Shown here piece by piece: positions 15,066 through 55,668 of a DNA stretch of 64,000 nt. Origin of the DNA: Ilyonectria destructans (lineage: Eukaryota; Ascomycota; Sordariomycetes; Hypocreales; Nectriaceae); contig JAHEWK010000023.1 of assembly GCA_020740775.1 (NCBI GenBank), forward strand, positions 837,829-901,828. The letters run 5' to 3'. The notes under the pieces are model-generated. The model was not told where the DNA came from and made no database searches. It saw only the letters and a list, made by a program, of their open reading frames with translations. The position numbers and the translations under genes are program-made. Numbering within the stretch: position 1 is the first letter of the stretch; every line of letters starts with the position of its first letter.

Positions 15066-15610
15066 TGCGAGATATGGCTTTCGGTCGAGGTGGCGGCGAG
15101 GCGACGCGACGCGACGCCGATCGACACGTCGTCAGCTTTGCTCTGCGACAAACGCAAGCGCTATATTGTCAGTGCTCAAAACTTGGAACTGCAAGCGTTA
15201 TATCCCAGATTGAGCTGAAGTGAACCTGGGCCATGACAGTCGGAGCATCGTTTCACTTGCCGTGTCCCGATGAAGTAACCATGCAGCTACACGTATACAC
15301 CAGATGGCCAAATACGTTAAAAGCGGTCAATACATCGAGGTAGACTCGCCTGGTGCCAGCGTTTAATCGGATGCTTCCCAGCGCATTGGACAGGGGCTGC
15401 CACCGCATTGACCCTTGTCCATCTCGATGAGAAGCCGAATGATTAGGAAGCAGGAAACTATCTGGAAATTATTACGAAAAAAAATATTAAAGACGCTGGG
15501 AAAGACACAAATGGTAGACATCTCACGCTTGATTTAGAGGGCAAAACAGTCACATTCCACAGAAGGAAAAGCACCGTTGAACTCAGACGCAGCTGTTTCA
15601 GGCCCAGACC
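15066..15610. other. spacer between the hAT relative and element A
   Basis: No coding frame, repeat or RNA is recognised here. Confidence 0.5.
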
Positions 15611-15851
15611 TACGGTTGACTGTAGGGCTCACTGTCCCAAAACCCCATTTTCAAAAAATTTCATCATTAGAGCCACCCTAGCGTATCTTCTTCATAAGCC
15701 CGAAACCCCCAAATACATGAATATTCAATTAAAGCGAGAGGGATATTCCATATACAAGGTCATACAACAATTTTTCCCCCAGTTCACGTCATCTTTTCCC
15801 TGTCACATTCTCCATCAATACATATCAGCAAAAACACCAACTGTATTACAC

Positions 15852-16431
15852 ATGTCACCTCCAATTAACTCAACTGCCAAGCAGCCATCAAATAAGGCTG
15901 CACTCACATCATGGGCTCTTACAAAAGCCCAATTAATACGGCCTGCAAAGGTGATAAGATGTCAAGAGCAGGCAACAGAGAGCCGTCTGTTACAGCTGAA
16001 TACACGAGCTAGACAAGGGCGGTCTGCATCAACTGGCCTTGACTTAACCCGTACACAAAATATTGATGCACTACTCATCTATATTTATGGGACTTCACGC
16101 ACACCTTCCTGTATGCAATGTGCGAGAGGAAATGGCATTTTTGAAGGGTGTATCACTAAGAGTGATATTGCTGCTGGTGCATGTGCGAACTGCACATATT
16201 CATCGAGAGGAATTCGATGTTCATATCATGGTAAGCTATTGAACCTTTCTTTATATAACAAATACTAATCAGAATATATTAGATCGGCCAAAAGAAACAC
16301 AATTATCTCAGTCCATAATAGAGAAAATCGTGAAGGAGTCTACACCTGATCAACTACGTGCATTTGGAGCAGATCTAATTGAAAGAGCTAAGGTCCAAGA
16401 GGAACTTAGCTCCACACAGCCCGAAGAGTAA
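15852..16431 (+). CDS. element A cysteine-cluster protein 1, about 175 aa
   Basis: Exons 15852-16230 and 16283-16431, joined over a 52-bp GT-AG intron with a TACTAATC branch site; the frame holds across the junction. Cysteines 87, 90, 100, 111, 114 and 123 form CX2CX9CX10CX2CX8C, which fits a zinc-binding fold. The arrangement and the ACANC core match the B-element protein at 51118-51944. The C-terminal exon encodes a helical acidic tail. An upstream in-frame ATG at 15717 is possible, but the ATG at 15852 gives a more compact protein. Function is unknown; as a transposon-encoded partner it may bind DNA or the transposase. Element B has no counterpart of this particular gene copy. Confidence 0.7.
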
Positions 16432-16685
16432 CTAGTCTAGGGTTACGGGTGATGAGTCATTAGTGCTAATATTCTCTTTATTTAAAGTGAAAAGTTTTGC
16501 GTACGCAAATAATCCAACTTAATCCTTCTTTATTATTCTCTACTATGAATTCCACAATCTGTTCCAAGAAGGGTTATCTCCATTCTGTTGTATTGTAGTT
16601 AAACCCAGACTGGGCTCGTTGTTATTTCTGTGGAGATAATATTACACCTTTAACTCTCCCTTCTTCTGCCAATCCTCAAGTTAAT

Positions 16686-17714
16686 ATGGTCGATTTGACT
16701 GGAGACAGCCCAATCCCACCTACACAGGCACGATCACGACAACTCCAGCATGCACCTGCACCTGCAATGACTATCCCTTCCTACAATCCTGCTCAACTGG
16801 AATCCGCTGTCAATCAGGGCAACCAAAGCCGAAATCTCCACGCCCAAGCTACTCGAACGAAGCCGATACCTAATACACCCATTGAGTTGTCAATTACCTT
16901 ATATACAGCAGCATATAAGTGTAAACCAAGCGGTCAATTGGAGATCAGGAAGTGGCAGCCTGGATCTCCTAGTGTTGCTACGAAAGTTAGCAATTGTTTT
17001 GTTACAAACGCAACACACAACTATCCTTCACATGCCGACTTTGTAAAGTCAGTTGCAGGACGTGCAGCAACTGATGCAACATATCGGGCTGTTAACTGGG
17101 AGTTCATTTCTGCTTGCATCTGTAACAGTTCTACAAGCATTGTTTTCTTTTCTCAGGAGGTTCTTGAGACAACTTCTCTTGCTGCATTTCTTACTGCAAT
17201 CAATCCTCAAGGTCCGGTTCCAACCAAGGCCAATCTTTCACTTCTGTATGCTTATGAAGCGAAAGAGGAGGAATCTGACATGATCACTCCTGTTCCAGTG
17301 CAAAAGAAGAAGGTCAAAGGCGAAAAGAAACTATCTCTTCCTATACAAAGCAATCCCCCAACACCATCTCCAATCAATCGCAAACGAAAGGCATCTACAC
17401 AAGCAGCTCCAACAACGGAGAGGAAGGTGAAGATAGACACGAAAAAGGAGGAGGTGTTGGTCTTACTAGAGAAGTCTAATGGAGAAGATGACTTTGCTGC
17501 ATTCTTCGATACGGATGTGGATGGATCGGATTTGAATGGACGAGATGAAATAGTTGTGGAAGTAGCTGGGCAAGGTAATGAGGATTTAGAGGCATTTGTG
17601 TCAGATGATGGAAGTAGAGAAGTGATTGAGGGAGATGTAATTAGTACAGGGCGGAAGACTGGCAGTAAACAGCCACTGCCTCCATTAAGCATGGTAACTC
17701 GCCAGCGTAAGTAG
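16686..17714 (+). CDS. element A accessory protein with SIM-like motif, 342 aa
   Basis: The first residues are MVDLTGDSP, resembling a SUMO-interaction motif (hydrophobic-D-L-T followed by acidic/Ser). In the same frame, just upstream of this ATG, a CYFCGD pair is encoded, so a short upstream exon may add a CxxC. The middle (about 30-200) aligns by eye with the minus-strand gene of element B: both have an NRQS/NQSR stretch, a (V/I)ELS segment and a hydrophobic strand near L.YAYE/FWLFNEG. The C-terminal third is charged and disordered. It ends only 25 bp from the convergent transposase stop. I do not recognise the fold. Role inferred: accessory factor for transposition or host evasion; unproven. 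Confidence 0.7.
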   Translation: MVDLTGDSPIPPTQARSRQLQHAPAPAMTIPSYNPAQLESAVNQGNQSRNLHAQATRTKPIPNTPIELSITLYTAAYKCKPSGQLEIRKWQPGSPSVATKVSNCFVTNATHNYPSHADFVKSVAGRAATDATYRAVNWEFISACICNSSTSIVFFSQEVLETTSLAAFLTAINPQGPVPTKANLSLLYAYEAKEEESDMITPVPVQKKKVKGEKKLSLPIQSNPPTPSPINRKRKASTQAAPTTERKVKIDTKKEEVLVLLEKSNGEDDFAAFFDTDVDGSDLNGRDEIVVEVAGQGNEDLEAFVSDDGSREVIEGDVISTGRKTGSKQPLPPLSMVTRQRK

Positions 17715-17739
17715 TTTCAATCCTCTTAAGTCTTTTCCT

Positions 17740-19329
17740 TTATTGATCTGCTGCTATCCATGATTCAAACACATCAATATCGATATTCTGAGCCTGTAGA
17801 AGTTGACTAAGTCGATCTCGCCCATCTCGGGGTCGGTCAAGTAAGGACAGTCGTGGTAAAGTCCCATTCTGAATATAAAGAGCCAATTCACCTCGTAGGA
17901 GATTGTACTCATCCAAAAGTGGATGTGTGACAACGTTCGATATTGCTGGTAAAGAGCCAATTGTCCTTGTGATAATATCTTGACAAATGGACATTGTTTC
18001 TTCTGGTAAGAAAACATCCAGATCAGATTGATCAAGATTAAAGGTTTCTTGACAGAATCTGAATCGATCGGGTGGAATCTCTTCAGCAAAGTTCCGTGCA
18101 GTCTCTGAATTGAGATCATGATATAGAACTGAGGGTTGTCCAGGTTGAACATGTGGTCGATTGGCTTGACGGCGAATAGAATGGCTATTCCAGACTCTTA
18201 CAAATGATATCAAGTCATGCCGGATCGGATTCATAAAGATGAATAGAATAGCAATGCGATCAGGGAGAGAGCCGCCATCAAAGAGCCCATTCTCTGTTAG
18301 CCATTGGAAGTATGTCTAATCGAAGAGAATTAGTAAAGATCAATAAGAAATAGTAGAAACTTACCCTCCATGATCCTCCACGTGCTTGATAAAGCCGATG
18401 CCACCAGCTTTCAATTCGAGTATTATGAATACTCCGTCCAAAAAACCAACAATCCTTGAACTCAATTGGAACTAACTCTGTTCCAATTCGTTTCGATTCC
18501 CAGAAAGAAAGTAATGTAAGCCACACATCAGAGCTGTTTCCCCTCCGTGATCAGATCGAATAGCTCGTGGCATCATACCACGCTGCCGCAGAACTGATAG
18601 ATACTGTAAAGCAATATTCCAACTTGTTGCAGCAGAATATCCACAGTAAAACCATGTAATATATCGGGCATACCCATCAATACCAGCATAGATCTCAAAG
18701 CCCCATTGCTTAAGCTTATCATAACCATCAAGGGACCATACCCAGTCAGGCCCTGGAACAATGAAGTCACGACGTTGAAAACGCGCTTTACCCCATCGAT
18801 CAGTAATGCTTTCAGGTGCAAAGTCTCGATAGACAGTGTACAATGCATCGCGACTGATAACATGATGTTGTTGCCTCATGTATGTGTAAAGATAGCCTCG
18901 ACCAAAGTTTTGAATGACAGTTGAGACTTGAGACTCATCGTGAAAGAAAGTTCTTGCAAGTTGTTGAGCTATTTGAAGCTGGTTATTGTCTTGCCGCCTG
19001 AACAGACCGAGTTCCCGACGGATCTTGCAAAGTCCAGTCATACTCAAGATAAACCCCTCATCTTGAAGCCGGCGTAGGATAATAGCATCTTTTAAACAGT
19101 CATCAAAGAACATTGACTTGATTCGCTCTCGTAGGGGTTCAGTATTAACTGTACGTTGTTGATGTACAAGTTCACATTGCTGTAAGAATCGGTACAGGAC
19201 TGAGCGACTGACTTGAATATTATAATTGGTAGAAAGAGAAAGAATAATACCAGAGATTGGGGTATTTTCTTCATGAAGAATAGTGATATCTTGACGGAAA
19301 GGGTTAAGATCTGTTCGAGGTCGAGGCAT
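17740..19329 (-). pseudogene. element A integrase-fold transposase, frameshifted
   Basis: Exons 19329-18365 and 18315-17740 are split by an intron at the same codon as in element B (after SWR / FWR). An N-terminal helix-turn-helix (about 1-55) precedes the integrase core: D201 in WSLDGYDKL, D260 in IRSDHGGET, and a glutamate in NTRIESWW. Near 18505 one base is missing relative to B: the YFLS strand runs into a stop in one frame while the ESKRIGTELV segment continues in another. Total exon length is 3n+2, consistent with a one-base loss. The C-terminal domain (RPHVQPGQP onward) is open. It resembles eukaryotic integrase-core transposases of the IS3EU kind; that assignment is from memory of motifs. 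Confidence 0.78.
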
Positions 19330-19648
19330 GTTGATTGAGGTTGAAAAGGAGAAGAAAAAGAGGAAAAGATAAGAATGGAGATAAATAACTTAAATATAAA
19401 ATGTAATTAGTTATATGTTTATTAAATAACTGTTTAGTTACATATATTACTTAATTATATTTCTATTTAAATAAATAACTAAATAAAACTTGAGAAATCT
19501 TTGTTTTGTTTCAAAGACAAAGTCTGTAAAGCTCTTTACAGCTCTGTTCATACCTGATCAGAACTATGCTAATCATTATGCTTGAAATCTCAGAAACCCA
19601 AGCCCATATGTCCCCGTAGAGCCATGTACATAGCTAATCAGACATAAA

Positions 19649-20437
19649 CTAATCAGTATCATCATGAATATTGCCGTCAAGGAGTGCCTCGAAGACATTC
19701 TTCATGACTCTGAGCGATTTGTTGTCAAGACTCATGAGCTCATCCATAACATCCTCTGCCTTGTAGTCCCGGCCAGATTTTTCCTTCTTGCTCTTTTTCT
19801 TGCCCTTACCCTTCTGCTTTTTCTGGTGCTTGGAAGTGGCTCATCGTCAGAGGATTCGTCGCGGGATCTCTTGCTGCCACCTGTGGTTATTAGTGATAGA
19901 TCCAGACCAGATATGTACATGTATGTACAGAACTTACCAGAGACAAGTGAGCAATGTTTGGCAGCACCACCGTAGTGGCAAGTGGCACAACCCAGGTGAC
20001 ATTTCGTCCAATGCCACATAAGCATTGAACGCACCAGTACCGTCCTTGCACTTCTGGCACGCCTGTTTGCCTTTGTTTTCTTGCCCGTACATGAACTTGA
20101 CCAAGGAATCGGCGGCTTGAGGGCGTGTAACGTTCACCACAGGCATGACTTTGCCTGACTTGGTCTGTCGAGAACGTAGCTCAATGAATCGCATCATCTA
20201 TCCAACAGTTAGCCATGTACAGGGCTGTACAGAGTCAATCGAGTAAGTACTCACGGGGAAATCAGCGTCACGGTCGAAGATCGCAGCGGCCTTGGCAGTA
20301 AAGGAAGCCTTGACGTCGTAGAACAACCGCGCGAACAAGTTCGCGGGCGACATGTCCACGGGGTCGACGTTCTCCTCAGATGGGATGGGAGTACCGTTGA
20401 GATCGTCAGGCAACTTGAACACAACCGTGGACGCCAT
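19649..20437 (-). pseudogene. element A cysteine-cluster protein 2, decayed
   Basis: Read leftward: exon 20437-20255, exon from 20197, then another after an intron ending near 19862. The product has the partner signature CQKC .. GAFNAY .. GCATC .. HC, but the third cysteine is Tyr. Frame is lost at about 20003 (one extra base just before GCATC) and again near 19840, beyond which an acidic C-terminus ending HDDTD remains open in a third frame. This is the collinear counterpart of the intact B gene at 51118-51944. It was probably functional before decay. Confidence 0.65.
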
Positions 20438-20593
20438 TGTTCAATGCGGTACAGGCGTGTATGGGCGTGTGGACGCGTAGTCGAGAAGTTGTTGTTGTCT
20501 GATGATAAACGTGAAGCAATGGCGGATGATGTTTTGCGACATGGGCCAATGTTTCGCGATGTTTGGTGGTGTACACGTCTGTAGACCAATGTT

Positions 20594-20594
<1 letters not shown>

Positions 20595-20625
<31 letters not shown>
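20595..20625 (+). repeat. A31 homopolymer
   Basis: An uninterrupted run of 31 A residues lies between the decayed cysteine-cluster gene and the right terminus of element A. Length may be unreliable in assembly. Confidence 0.9.
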
Positions 20626-20627
<2 letters not shown>

Positions 20628-20901
20628 AGAAGAAAGATGACGAGGGAAGAATTCCAATTGCGCGCGCTTAAAAAAAAGACGAATCTCTATGCATGTGTTC
20701 TACGCCTGTAACTATCTGTGAACAGCTGTTCACAGCTGTACTCGAATTCTTGCCAGTATTGGAATGAGAGCATGTAAACGTCATATAATCGGTTTAAAGG
20801 ATATTACATTTACGATCAGGCGTGAATACGCCCGTAGTGTGCGGCTAGTGGGAAATTTTTGAAAATGAGTTTTGGGACAGTGAGCCCTACAGTCAACCGT
20901 A

Positions 20902-22945
20902 TCACCACGTTTCTTCGGTCGCTAAGCTTGGTTTCATACATCCTCTTGTCTTCATAGATCCATTCGTTCATACGCCTCCTTATCGAGTCGTCGTTTGTAA
21001 GAGATGCCGCTTCGCGTGCGTAGCTGATACGCATGTGCAGACACGATGTCACATCTATCACCGACTTCGGCAGTCAAAGGCATACGATTTTGCTTGCTTT
21101 TACGGACTGTTATTTTCCCAGACGGACTAATAGGCCTAACAGCTGATCCTACTGTCAGGGGGCTGACCCTGATCCCTGTACTAAGACATCTATTGTGTTC
21201 CAATTCCTCTATAAAATACGGCCCTTCAGACCGTCAGTTAGCTAGGAATCAAGATCTTCTACATGTTCAATTGCAATCCCGCCTTCTGATACACGACATG
21301 GCGATGTCCCACCTGTTCGCTACCACAACGAGAAAGTGCGCTAGATCTGTCACGAATCGCACGATGAGGCAATTGTTGGGACGGTTCAGCAGATCCACAA
21401 AATAATATGAAGCCAGGCCGAGCTTGTCGCGTTTCAATTCCCCCTGCCAACATCAGAGCCAATCCCCTTTCTCGGCCGCCGGTCGTGCCTGCTGTGGTCA
21501 GGGTTCTGCATTTCAAGTCAGCATTCGCTCTGCGACATGCCCTCAGAGAAGCAGGTGGATTTCTCCAATCAAAGCCCGACCCAGAGCCCGCCATACAGAG
21601 GAAACAAGACTTTGCGTGACGTGCTGTATGCGGACAGGTGAATCGATGGCGTGGTGATTGTCGGCTTATGTCGATTGATGACATAGGAACGTGAAAAGTG
21701 CATCACTTTCTTCACAATTTTCCACGACCCCATGTCGGGGCAGTCCTTCCATTGACGGAGCAGACAGAATTAGGTTGACGCAAGCGGTAGTGCATCACAA
21801 AATATGACCATATTTTCACCATTTATGAGAACGAGGATAAATGTGCTAACATGTTCAACAGTTACTGACCAGCGTGTCCGTATAACTTATCTTAGAGTAA
21901 TACTACAAAAATAATACTTTAGGGTCGGATTCCTATCGCGAGCGGAATACCGTATATAGAGTTTGAACAGCTTCGTTGCACCGACAAGCACAAACCTCCC
22001 CTGTCAGCTAAATTATCGGTGTTCTGCTATCCCTAAGCCTCCTTTGGTCGCAGTTTTGTCATCCCTGCTGCCTAGAAACTCTCCAGAGACACTTCGATAG
22101 CTTATAAATCGTGACAGCCAATACTCGACGGATTTTTGCTTAGTCCTGATAGGCAACTGCGTAATAGCGACCGGCCGAAACCTCCCTAAAGATACTTGAA
22201 TGGCCTTCGCATCACAGGTCGTCTTCCCAAGCCAATCTTGCGTTCCGTTCCACAACAGGGTCAGGAGCTGATTAAAGTTTTCGTGCTTTCTTCCAAGTCA
22301 TCAATCAAATTCATATGCGACTGCATAAAGTTACACCAAAGCATCTGCAAGTATTGATATTAATAACGTCACGTTGCATATAGTCCAGAACTTTATTAAT
22401 GGATCTCAGATGTAGATGTGTGTGGATGAAAAAGTCCTGGTGGCTCTTTAATGAAATCCTACTACAGCTGCGCGCCATAGTGCAACCAGTCAAGTTGCTA
22501 AGAAAGCTAGAGCGACCGAGAAATTTAAAACTTAAAGGTTCGTAATAAAAGTAACGATATCACGCCCCAATTTAACAATCCAACCATGTTCGAAACTGGC
22601 CCTCTACGTTCTTCATGAATATCCTGAAAACAAAACCTAAAGAGCTCAATAAATCAGCTATCATTATTAAGTCATACTTAGAAACTTTCCAGAGTTTCCC
22701 AAGGTTTCGTATCTAAATTTATCTAGTTCCACACAGACTGTGAATGGGTTTTGCATGTGATTGCATGGTAGCTGCATGTGACTGCATGATGCTCAATGAG
22801 TATCTGTAAGTACCTACTGTACCAATTCCCGTTGGCATTTTAACAAGATGCCACCAAATGGATCCGTGTACGCGAGAAAAGATCACAGCTACAGACGTTT
22901 AAGCCTTATCTCGAGGCTTGTCACTCTCTCGGTCTTGCCGTCGAA
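20902..22945. other. intergenic spacer with possible LTR remnant
   Basis: No intact gene. A stretch near 21120-21262 has a TATA-like CTATAAAATA followed by a GC-poor leader and AGCTAGGAATCAAGATCTTCTA, closely resembling a stretch at 30080-30103; both may be fragments of the same retrotransposon LTR. The rest shows nothing recognisable. Confidence 0.4.
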
Positions 22946-50440: not shown

Positions 50441-51117
50441 TACTATTAGTCGGGCCGAGTCGAAGCAGTACCAGAATATTCTTTATAGAGAGAGCTGTGT
50501 AAATCTGTTGTGATGTTAAGAGTGACGATGAACGCGTACTGTCCTCCTCCTTTGCCGGGGGTTTCATTTAATTTCACTCTACAAGCATGGCACGGGTACG
50601 GAAGTCCATAGGGGGCACAGTTCCAAAACCCAATTTGTGGTTGTTTTTGGGTAGGGGCACACCCACCGTGCGGCCCCGTTTGAAGCATAATCGCTCCCTC
50701 AAATCGCTTAGTCATCCAAAATCAACTTGCATTCATGGCCAGCTAGTCACGTGCGCACGCCTAATTCTCCTCACAACAGGCTACGAGGGTCTCTTTCCTT
50801 TCTTCTTCCTTCTTCAACTACAATTTGAAGGTAAGAATAGCCTTCTTTTGCATCAAAATAACGCCACCGCCATGCGCTTTACGTGGGCGTTCAATCAGCT
50901 ACGATATCGCATGGTTACGTGCTACATTTTGATATGCATTTTGCCCATATTGGCGGACCCACGCGCCCTACGATTTTCCGCAGTACGTACTGACCCAGGC
51001 TAACCGTTACCCAGGCAGGAACCCCACAAGCCTTCCAGACGCGATGCATCTCCGTACGCGCCCGTACGTAAGCAGATTCGACACACTTCGGCTTCGTACG
51101 ACTACAGATTGCCCATC

Positions 51118-51944
51118 ATGGCCGGCGCTCGCAAGAAGGGTGACAAGGACAAGGAGGCGGAGAAGGAGAGAGAGCGACTCGAAAAGGAAAAAGAGAAACA
51201 GGACAATCTGCTTCGTAAGGCTGCTATCGACCTCCTACGTGAGGATTTTGGAGAGGAAAAATTCGGCCAGCTGCCTAAGGAAGTGCTGGAGATCGATACT
51301 TATACGTTCACATACAAGGGCGAACAGCCCACTGAGAACCCGGATCTTACCGTTTGGGCTCTGATGAATGCTCTGAAGGGTAGCAGTAAGAAGGGTTTTG
51401 CTGCTATTGACTCCACTAAGGTTTATACCCGCAGATCAGCGTACTAGTTCGTACTAACTTGTATCAGGAAGTACGTCTGCTTGAGCTCAACTATAAGACT
51501 GACAGCAAGTCTATGAAGAAGACCGCCCCTGTCCTTAACTTTCGCGGCAGTCAGAATTGTGATACTATGCTCCGCCACCTGTACGGTGACGAACGTGAGG
51601 ATACGGAGCGCTGCAACAAGTGTACGGGCCAAAACGGCTCCTTCAACAAGTGTATTGTCTCTGACACTTACCTGCATGCTTGTGCCAATTGCGACTGGAA
51701 CCGTTCTAGCCAGGCATGTTCTCTCGGTGAGTACTTACACTTACGCACCTATATACAGTACTAATTAGTAGTAGGCAAGCAAAGCACCAAGCGCAAGGCC
51801 GATGACTTCGACTCTAATAGTGACAGTACGGACCCGATGGAGGACTTTGACCGCAAGACGCTCTTGAAGATGTCTAAGTTCTTTAAGGATGCTGCTGACA
51901 AGAAGAAGAGAAAGAAGGGGGCCACCCCTTTGAGGAAAGACTGA
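51118..51944 (+). CDS. element B cysteine-cluster protein, 243 aa
   Basis: Exons 51118-51420, 51468-51726 and 51775-51944 total 732 nt in frame. The first 40 residues are a highly charged Lys/Glu helix (probable coiled coil). Cysteines 150, 153, 163, 173, 176 and 185 give CX2CX9CX9CX2CX8C, probably a two-zinc fold, with NGSFNKC and ACANC matching element A's GNGIFEGC and ACANC. The C-terminus is acidic then Lys-rich, possibly a nuclear localisation signal (KKKRKKG). It looks intact, unlike its counterpart in A. Function unknown; its retention beside the transposase in both elements suggests a role in transposition. Confidence 0.78.
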
Positions 51945-52462
51945 GGTATATCACCCTTTACATGAGAATACGAGCTCGTACCGACCCTTTTCCTAGTCTA
52001 CTTAGTTATTTCCTACCACCCCTGTTCTGAGATTCTAAGGTAAAATTTCTTTTTGTAATCTAAGCAAAAATATAAACGAAACTTTTGCGTACGACTGCAA
52101 GAGGCATACAGAGCATTATAATACCTAATTGCTAGCTAGGGCCTGAAATGAAATTTACTTTAGTCTTTAATTGTTTTTAATGTGAGGAAGATGTAATATA
52201 TTTGCCTTAAAATCTGGGGAGTATTGCTGGGTAGAGTCTGGTTGTATATTGTATGATTACTAACGACCACTAGTAGCTTTGCCCCTGAATTGCCTAATTA
52301 GGCTCTAGCTCAAAAATTAAGATTACGCTCTCGTACGGCCACGTACGCGGCCATGCGAAAAAGATTTCCAGCCCCCGATTGAATCCAAAGCTGGAATTTT
52401 CGATTTTTAGTACGAGCCCGTACTTCTCGTCACGGCCTCATACGAGCCCGCAAGTCAACGCA

Positions 52463-54086
52463 ATGGGCCGCCCTTCGATTGACTTATCTTCATTTCGCAT
52501 ACAAATTCAACAATGGAAGAATGATGACTATCTTACATACGATCAAATCGTCACGCGCCTTAATAAGCATTTCCACGTCATAGTGGGACGTACGACCGTG
52601 TATTGCAGCCTCAAAAGTTGGAATATCTCAGTCAAACAATACACCAAAGACTCAGAACACCTTCGTCAGCATATTAAAGATTTATTCTTTAATAAGGTCT
52701 TGAATGATCACTTTATGCTTCTGAAGCTTCATTCTGACGGCTTTATTATCACGAAGACTGGACTTGAACGCATACGCCGGGACCTTGGGCTTTGGCGCCG
52801 GCAAGACCCCGAGCAGATATCAGAAAGCCTACGCGAATTGCGCCGTTTCTTTGAAAGCGAGTCCGAACAGAGCACTAAGCTTAAAGACTTTGGCCGTACG
52901 TATCTCTACGCAAAGGTCCGTCGAGCTGGACTCGTACTCAGTCGCCGGGCGCTGTACGAAGGCTTTCGTGAGTTTTATCCTGGAAGTATTACCGAACGTT
53001 GGAATACGATGCGATATCGCCGAGGTGGATGGACAGCCCCTGGCCCTGACTTTATGTGGTCTCTTGATGCCTATGATAAACTGAAGGCTTGGGGCTTTGA
53101 GATTTACGCTTCAATTGACGTATACTCACGGTTTATTACGTGGTTTTATATTGGCATATCAGCCAATACGTCACGGAGTGTTGTTGCGCAATACCTTTAC
53201 GTACTTTCAGAACGCCAAACAATGCCCAATATCATCCGTTCAGACCGCGGCCGAGAGACAATTCTAATGGCTGGAGCACATTTCTACCTTTCGAAAGAAC
53301 GCGTGCGTGTACGGGATAGTATTCGGCAAGACGTGCGCTTCCAAGACTGTTGGGCCTACGGCAAGAGCACGAATAATCAGAAGATTGAAAGCTGGTGGCT
53401 TCGGCTAAGTCGAGGCAGGGCTAAGTTCTGGCGGGTAAGTATAGACTGATATCTTTATTTATGATGGCATATTAATGTATTCTTAGGAGTATTTCTCTGA
53501 AATCACGGGAGTTTCATATTTCTCGGATGATTCCGTACCCGACCGTATTGCGATGCTTTATATCTTTATGCCAATTTTGAGAGAGGAATTCGCCGACTTC
53601 GTACACATGTGGAATGTGCATTACATTCGTAAACAGCGCAATAGGCCACATGTTGTTCCCGGGCAACCATGGAACCTTTACTTTCAGCCCGAGGCCCGAC
53701 AAGTCAGAAGCTGGGCAGAGGTTATCCTTCAGGAACGACTAGATACACTTCAGAATATCTTCGCAGAAGACCATATTGACCTTGACGCTTACTTACCTGA
53801 GCATACGATAGCTATTTGCGATCGCATACTCCAAAGCCGCCAAGACTACCCGCAAGATCCAGTAGAACGGCTACATCTTTCTACATATCTCTTCTTACGG
53901 CAGCATTTGCAGCAGTATATTATCAATGAAGAATCACCAGCTCTAGAGCTACTATCAACACCTACTGGTGGACTGGACCGCGTACGAGATCATTTGGCAG
54001 CGAATGATATTGATGCCACTACGCTTGATAGGCTCGAAAATGAGATTGGAGAGGAGATTGATGATGTTGACGAGCAGGAGGACTAA
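52463..54086 (+). CDS. element B integrase-fold DDE transposase, 523 aa
   Basis: Exons 52463-53434 and 53487-54086 (52-bp intron with GTAAGT). An N-terminal helix-turn-helix lies at about 1-55 (LTYDQIVTRLNKHF). The catalytic core shows D202 in WSLDAYDKLK, D261 in IRSDRGRET and E309 in NQKIESWW, with 58 and 47 residues between them. The C-terminal domain (RPHVVPGQPW) and an acidic tail follow. There is no stop or frameshift. ATG at 52463 is chosen because it aligns with the start of the A protein (MPRPRTDL versus MGRPSIDL). It resembles integrase-core proteins of eukaryotic IS3EU-like transposons rather than retroviral integrase, since no reverse transcriptase is near. Confidence 0.85.
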
Positions 54087-54131
54087 CCATATAACCAAAT
54101 ACATACATAATTAAAGCATTTCGCACTCAAA

Positions 54132-55267
54132 TTAATCTATATTCTTATTCTTCCCCCTCCCAGCTCGAAAAGGAAGCTTCTTCTCAGGTGAACCCCCCTG
54201 TGTTTCTGACTGTTCGATATTGCTTGTAAAAGGATCACTCAGTGCGGCATCGTTCGAAGCTGTATCTGTGACTGTAATACACCCCGCGATAACCTCATCC
54301 TTGACTTCAGTCTTGATGGGGCTTCGAGCTTCGAGCTTTATTGGTACCAGAGATAGCACTGGGGCTTTGAATTCGTCCTTACTGGTTGATACGCGCCCTG
54401 ACTTTGCCGTACGTAGAACCTTGGGCTTGATAGGGCTTGGCGTTGACATATCCGAGTCCATATCAGAAGGCCGTAATCAATAGCCCTTTTGCGGCCACGT
54501 GCGGCTCTCAACGGCCTCTGACAGTCGTCATCAGGTCGGGGTCCCTCGTTGAAGAGCCAAAAAGTGAGATTGGCTGTATCACGTTGCTTTGTAACGGTGA
54601 TATTCCCCTGGCTGAATAGATCTCCTAGCGTAACGGTATTGTACGCTCCACTAGGGAAGTATACGGGTCCAGAAGTAGCGCCAACTGTTGATACGGAATG
54701 AACGACTTGCCACTCTTTCTCCTTGAGGCGTTCATCGCATTGCTCGACGATGAATCTGATCATTGAGCTATGGGATGAAAACTTACGCCCTAGTACGACT
54801 TCAACAGATCCAGTACGCTTTCCAGCGTGCCGAATTCCCTTGTACACTGGAATCGTGATGCCTGGGATGCTATCATCGATATAGCCGTTACCAATCCAGA
54901 AGATTGCTGATAGTTCGACAACGACTGGGTCCTTTCGGATCCGTGTGGCTGCGATACTGCTCTGACGGTTCTGTACGGCCATTATAGTCGAAGCCTGATA
55001 GGTGTCAGGCATTGGCACAGTTGTAGAGGAAGTAGTGATTATGCCCCGTGAGGCAATGTTCTTTGTCGTAGAGGTCCGTTGGGTTAAAGGTGAATCAACG
55101 GTCAGGTCGATCGAAATAGGGGCTGCATTGTGTAGAGCCGTAGGTAGTCGTTGAGCGCAATGCGGGCAATAAACAGCCCCCGGAAATTTCGTACGGATAT
55201 CCACATGACGAGTACGTTGTTGCGCTGATGGACAGTACTCTGTTTGAGGAGGTGAAGCGGGCTCCAT
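54132..55267 (-). pseudogene. element B SIM-like accessory protein, probable frameshift
   Basis: It starts at 55267 (MEPASPPQTE). A CPHC pair is followed by SIDLTVDSP, paralleling CYFC and VDLTGDSP of element A's gene. A globular middle (about 80-240) matches A's protein in pattern. Near 54475 the frame changes: RGRKRAIDYG runs on in one frame to a stop at 54338, while SDMDSDMSTPSPIKPK continues in another to 54132, giving an acidic/basic disordered tail like A's. Either a one-base change or an unrecognised intron is responsible. Its stop lies 45 bp from the convergent transposase stop. Confidence 0.6.
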
Positions 55268-55668
55268 ACTGAAAGAAGGTGGAAAGTTGATAGAGAGCAG
55301 CGAAAGTGTGCGTACGAGTTCGTACGAACTCGTACGCAACCTTATACCCCTTTCACCATATACTAAATTGGCCCGGCAATGGGAAACGGATGGTCCCTTG
55401 TACACCGGTAAAGCAATTTTCTCATTGAAATTACGATACGGGCTCGTATGCGGCTAAACAGAAGGATAAATACACATTGGGGTTAGTCTAGTGATAAAAA
55501 AAAAGAGAGCCGGGGGTTTTGGAACTGTGCCCCCTATGGACTTCCGTACACTGGGCAGTTCAGCAACTCGCGCCATTCCAAGTTGAGGTTGCCGCCGCGC
55601 TAATCCGTAAAGTGCTCGCCCACAGATGCTTATTAACTACGGAGCATTTATCTGGGGCCTGACATTGT

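Follow-up and report, generated by a model that had tools for sequence, protein, structure and literature searches.

IS3EU-type DNA transposons of Ilyonectria destructans carry DUF3716 genes and a candidate SUMO-linked protein, and their copies show signs of swapped flanks

Two related DNA transposons, element A (positions 15611 to 20901) and element B (50597 to 55548), lie in a 64,000-nucleotide window of the fungus Ilyonectria destructans (contig JAHEWK010000023.1, positions 837,829 to 901,828). Their families show TACGG termini, a DDE-type transposase gene, target-site duplications (TSDs) of 5–6 bp with corresponding empty sites, many copies in the genome, and accessory genes that are borne by the element and have nonsynonymous to synonymous substitution ratios (dN/dS) below 1. 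We file A and B under the IS3EU superfamily, whose published description they appear to fit, as a known kind of element rather than an unplaced new kind. In our overall reading, to which we give a probability of about 0.47, A is an IS3EU copy with frame breaks, in which a protein here termed G2 would act as a SUMO-linked scaffold and DUF3716 as a helper, and whose copies have recombined their flanks.

The original prediction had placed identical 33-bp TACGG inverted termini around four genes in A, one of them an integrase-fold DDE gene, and all of this was borne out. The left arm (15611..15656, forward strand) begins TACGG and the right arm (20856..20901, reverse strand) finishes CCGTA; the arms are 46 nt long and 89% complementary, with the outermost 33 bp identical. 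The four genes are DUF3716 gene 1 (15852..16431, forward; Pfam PF12511, 6.9e-14), for which our guess is an intron near 16230-16285; G2, with a main exon at 16599..17714 (forward) that encodes a CxxC, a VDLT motif, a core and a charged tail, and with an uncertain upstream start; the two-exon transposase (17740..19329, reverse), whose frame is broken, in the window copy, close to where exon 1 ends; and DUF3716 gene 2 (19652..20437, reverse), which is split over frames in the window copy. Copies C35, C37 and C16_218 have long open frames with a DUF3716 match at the end corresponding to gene 2 (C numbers denote contigs, and C16w is the window copy). The transposase matches Pfam rva_4 above the cut-off and rve below it, and its residues D202, D261 and E309 are near-invariant over 21 aligned rows. 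In the window copy of A its frame stays open for 305 residues; five members of the A family have 371 and one more has 374.

The same gene set was also expected in B, collinear when inverted. The collinearity held, but B has three genes and not four: read from open reading frames (ORFs) and tblastn, inverted A runs DUF3716 gene 2, transposase, G2 (opposite strand), DUF3716 gene 1 (opposite strand), and B runs DUF3716, transposase, G2 (opposite strand). The DUF3716 gene of B (51118..51944, forward) has predicted exons at 51118-51420, 51468-51726 and 51775-51944, with limits set by eye and the PF12511 match (2.2e-11) in exon 2; the transposase (52463..54086, forward) has predicted exons at 52463-53434 and 53487-54086; and G2 (54135..55267, reverse) changes frame near 54480 in the window copy. 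Its G2 frame is 371 residues long in 5 of 12 full copies, the window copy included, and 440 in another 5. The inverted repeats of B (50597..50631, forward, and 55514..55548, reverse) are identical over 35 bp; with one flanking base per side (50596-50631 and 55514-55549) they make arms of 36 nt that are 100% complementary. The TACGG start and CCGTA end are common to A and B and, in a search seeded on TACGG, were also found in subfamilies S2, S3, S5 and S7 (S2–S7 are our own names) and in a 1615-bp derivative. The terminal inverted repeats (TIRs) of these four subfamilies are 38–43 bp with at most 3 mismatches, and 29–30 of the outer 30 bases match; for S6, a search of one 7-kb piece found none.

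The TACGG..CCGTA ends, the integrase-fold DDE transposase and, less clearly, the 5–6 bp TSDs agree with IS3EU. IS3EU elements have TA..TA termini and mostly 6-bp TSDs according to the available text of PMC10045372, and those of rust fungi (Pucciniales) have 6-bp TSDs, TIRs of more than 30 bp and TAYGG..CCRTA ends in the accessible part of PMC12730594. The elements here have the TA..TA termini, and TIRs exceed 30 bp in A, B, S2, S3, S5 and S7; against the usual 6 bp, S7 and S5 have TSDs of 6 bp, A has 5 bp and B has either 5 or 6. The rust elements likewise combine a transposase with extra genes, and in their TET-carrying families an alpha-kinase gene lies opposite to the transposase in strand, as G2 does here, but their cargo is a TET/JBP dioxygenase and an alpha-kinase instead of DUF3716 and G2, and their TSDs are 6 bp (PMC12730594, same part). 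Styx of Zymoseptoria resembles A in its IS3EU-related transposase and four ORFs, sits on core and accessory chromosomes and is associated with rearrangements; compared by description, it differs in its length of 7927 bp, its GATA, CCHC and DUF3577 genes and its 6-bp TSD (PMC10853768, available portion). IS481EU shares an IS3/IS481-like integrase-fold transposase, but is described as a one-protein element of parabasalids that has TNT or TGT at its termini and TSDs of about 4, 15 or 25 bp (PMC10045372); the TACGG termini and 5–6 bp TSDs found here do not agree with that description. A sequence search of solved structures gave no useful match for the transposase (P0002), G2 or DUF3716.

In the 71.7-Mb assembly (74 contigs), the A terminus has 13 matching places and 6 two-ended copies, and the B terminus has 24 and 11. 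The B transposase exon matches 123 places at 30–100% identity, in several subfamilies, and the gene set is retained in subfamilies with 42–75% transposase identity to B. Just outside the window, some 1.6 kb short of its first base, is an S6-type transposase copy (C16:835294-836214), whose element may extend into the window. Among proteins of named source, those nearest to the transposase come from Ilyonectria and Fusarium, those nearest to G2 from Ilyonectria, and those nearest to DUF3716 from Ilyonectria and Dactylonectria; the transposases of Metarhizium and Beauveria are more distant. An Ilyonectria robusta transposase relative (P0008) and G2 relative (P0033) seem to lie on one contig of 442,315 bases.

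The flanks differ immediately outside TACGG, and flank pairing together with empty sites ruled out TA as the target duplication. Copies with their own TSD of at least 5 bases number 1 of 6 in A and 3 of 11 in B (together 4 of 17), versus 10 of 17 in S7 and 2 of 4 in S5, where all are 6 bp. The S7 sample consists of those left ends, 17 out of 39, whose sequence is identical over 94 bases, including one 235-bp derivative (the S7 copy on C13, with a duplicated terminus, was left unscored), and the S5 sample 4 of the left ends found. One S3 copy has the 5-bp TSD CGTCC, and comparison of the flanks of the S2 copy gave no TSD match. Empty sites with a 5-bp overlap occur on C21 for B_C29_369, on C19 and C22 for B_C29_156, and on C19 for a rearranged pair described below; at two further sites, on C9 and C32, a mismatch shortens the overlap to 3. 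The A_C35 copy has three candidate empty sites and no clean duplication. A 235-bp element resembling a miniature inverted-repeat transposable element, with S7 termini and the 6-bp TSD TTTGGG, lies at C16:744061-744295 (L112).

The accessory genes were predicted to be part of the element, and the shared ends and gene order of its copies support this, as does clustering near the transposase far above random; full-length copies with the same gene order and TACGG ends, the proposed check, were found within this genome. For DUF3716, 49 of 59 matches have their start no more than 4.5 kb from a transposase match (random placement mean 5.6, of 52 placed), 41 of these 49 on the transposase strand. For G2, with pieces of one gene counted separately, 40 of 54 are as close (random mean 5.3, of 47 placed), and all but one of the 40 are on the opposite strand. 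Per transposase locus (n = 123), 30 have both, 16 DUF3716 alone, 8 G2 alone and 69 neither, in searches that miss far G2s. Independent occurrence, which was to count against the prediction, is partly seen: 10 of the 59 DUF3716 matches lie more than 4.5 kb from any transposase (of these, C38:142371 adjoins a B terminus), hence the domain exists outside complete elements too. Those at C2:631759, C4:1035133, C3:98184 and C74:1607983 are possible host genes or relics.

PF12511 scores are 52.0 bits for gene 1 of A and 44.0 for exon 2 of B, above the curated cut-off of 22, and 16.5 for the A gene 2 fragment, below it; the viewed S6 and S7 copies gave no DUF3716 match. Single copies of S5, S7 and S6 have an opposite-strand G2-like ORF. 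A profile of the A, B-type, S2 and S3 G2 proteins, run against 94 sequences (48 of them window-ORF decoys), scored S5 at 2.5e-21, S7 at 0.0026 and S6 at 0.088, with the best true decoy at 1.1. On this profile evidence, the families with clear G2 homology are A, B, S2, S3 and S5. Between A subgroups, dN/dS is 0.08–0.19 for DUF3716 gene 1, 0.27–0.37 for the gene 2 fragment, 0.11–0.15 for the transposase and 0.51–0.55 for G2; against S3, synonymous sites are saturated in most genes. The tree would fit either a single or a repeated gain of DUF3716. A 1615-bp element (L122:1781-3395; C14:299780-301394), with TACGG TIRs and the 5-bp TSD GTCGG, lacks a transposase and retains N-terminal pieces of G2 (a 196-residue ORF) and DUF3716; by eye, it sits inside an apparent long interspersed nuclear element. 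Eleven G2 N-terminal pieces without a nearby transposase occur genome-wide, including that one, the only one viewed.

G2 of A gave no significant family in a Pfam profile search. The features of the protein are a C-H-CxxC knuckle, a SUMO-interacting-like motif of the form I/VDLT, present in 5 of 6 aligned subfamilies, and a charged tail. The SUMO-acceptor consensus psiKxE occurs in the tail at 21 sites over seven proteins, against 2.5 expected, an excess over shuffles that preserve the composition of 40-residue blocks; the reversed motif shows no such rise. The core is possibly a ubiquitin-like (beta-grasp) fold, and from these motifs we infer that G2 may be a SUMO-linked transposition or anti-silencing helper. 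DUF3716 has the cysteine spacing C-x2-C-x9-C-x8..11-C-x2-C-x8-C, which we take to be reminiscent of fungal Zn2Cys6 clusters, as a likeness only. Its structure model (mean predicted local distance difference test score, pLDDT, 47) was discarded, and of 37 pattern-matching stretches in viral contigs none was confirmed as a relative. A literature search covering few subscription papers returned nothing on DUF3716, alone or with a transposon, and no transposon-encoded SUMO-interacting motif; IS3EU with SUMO gave only one paper, on buffalo mastitis.

TSDs that match between the left and right sides of different copies were found seven times in A and B. Among the 30 ordered pairs of A copies there are 2 such cross matches (null mean 0.05), and among the 110 of B copies there are 5 (null mean 0.21); S7 has 2 among 272 (null mean 0.79), not above chance. 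Four of the seven form two reciprocal pairs, A_C16w with A_C13 (AGACC/TCACC) and B_C16w with B_C38 (CACGGG/CACTGG). The left flank of A in the window, AGACC (15606..15610), differs from its right flank, TCACC (20902..20906), and recurs to the right of the C13 copy, which has TCACC on its left. Copies C18, C16_702, C16_552 and C13 are linked by flank matches in an open chain, and the sequences to the left of C16_552 and to the right of C13 are contiguous, with a single CCTGG, at C19:390743-390893, so that the pair was probably one site originally. The B copies combine two haplotypes in mosaic fashion (55 variable columns, nine close copies): C13 and C16_702 have one switch each and C38 an internal tract. 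Swaps and mosaics fit ectopic exchange between copies. One haplotype differs from the other chiefly by C-to-T changes, 27 of 39 in CpA context (C18 versus C16w), which looks like repeat-induced point mutation; that haplotype is nonetheless found in several copies (C16w, C38, C20 and C16_552 contrasted with the C18 and C29 copies).

Several observations weigh against our overall reading. The structure model shows an unstructured G2 tail (pLDDT <50, residues 248-378), the tail is rich in K and E, A's own G2 has a single psiKxE site, and G2 homology appears weak in S7 and rests on position and motifs in S6; six A and B copies, unpaired on one or both sides, are unexplained. It is a real possibility, if one we hold tentatively, that these are ordinary IS3EU elements in which G2 and DUF3716 are generic DNA-binding helpers, much as the second, Myb-like protein of Harbinger is a DNA-binding helper, and the SUMO-like motifs are incidental to a charged nuclear protein. 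The evidence for IS3EU membership agrees with this, as do the points on the G2 tail and site count; however, the psiKxE excess over block-composition shuffles, unaccompanied by the reversed motif, and the retention of I/VDLT across most subfamilies weigh against it. The broader claim, that Hypocreales IS3EU transposons encode their own SUMO-pathway hub, G2, as a core accessory for transposition assembly or silencing evasion, with DUF3716 as a transposon helper family, would go further and we consider it unlikely. A new superfamily, or host genes enclosed by chance, could draw on the unlinked DUF3716 matches and on the protein search for G2, which gave three homologues, the named ones all from Ilyonectria robusta, but the IS3EU hallmarks and a gene set kept across such diverged transposases make it highly improbable.

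The swapped flanks could quite plausibly, if at less than even odds, be assembly errors, in which the assembler crossed between near-identical 5-kb copies. The B copies are indeed nearly identical, and the alignment of A with its C13 partner has 5053 identical positions among 5071, along with minor differences in length and a larger one of 209 bases. However, S7, with its identical 94-base ends, keeps its TSDs in 10 of 17 cases (9 of 16 full-length copies and the 235-bp derivative), although its elements are shorter, at 3.6 kb; and inside C38 a tract of the other B haplotype is bordered on either side by the copy's own, a pattern expected of gene conversion. Copies of the IS3EU-like Styx also lie near translocation breakpoints in Zymoseptoria, according to the available portion of PMC10853768. 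Hybrid transposition, in which ends of two different copies act in one event and exchange TSDs, would yield reciprocal pairs such as the two found here, but the haplotype switches within C13, C16_702 and C38 favour crossing-over inside the copies, and we regard it as improbable.

In the reading we prefer, the transposase would excise the element and then re-insert it, and G2, with its zinc knuckle, SUMO-interacting-like motif, possibly ubiquitin-like core and sumoylation-prone tail, would be a scaffold that aids assembly of the transposition complex or prevents silencing by the host. DUF3716, of which A has two genes, would be a cysteine-rich, probably zinc-binding helper, and near-identical copies would act as recombination sites that swap flanks. 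The SUMO pathway is better known from silencing than as transposon equipment. The findings link DUF3716, an uncharacterised Pfam family, with a transposon and offer a candidate transposon-borne protein with SUMO-pathway motifs. After Styx, further IS3EU copies may lie at rearrangement breakpoints, where TSDs may trace flanks that were formerly joined.
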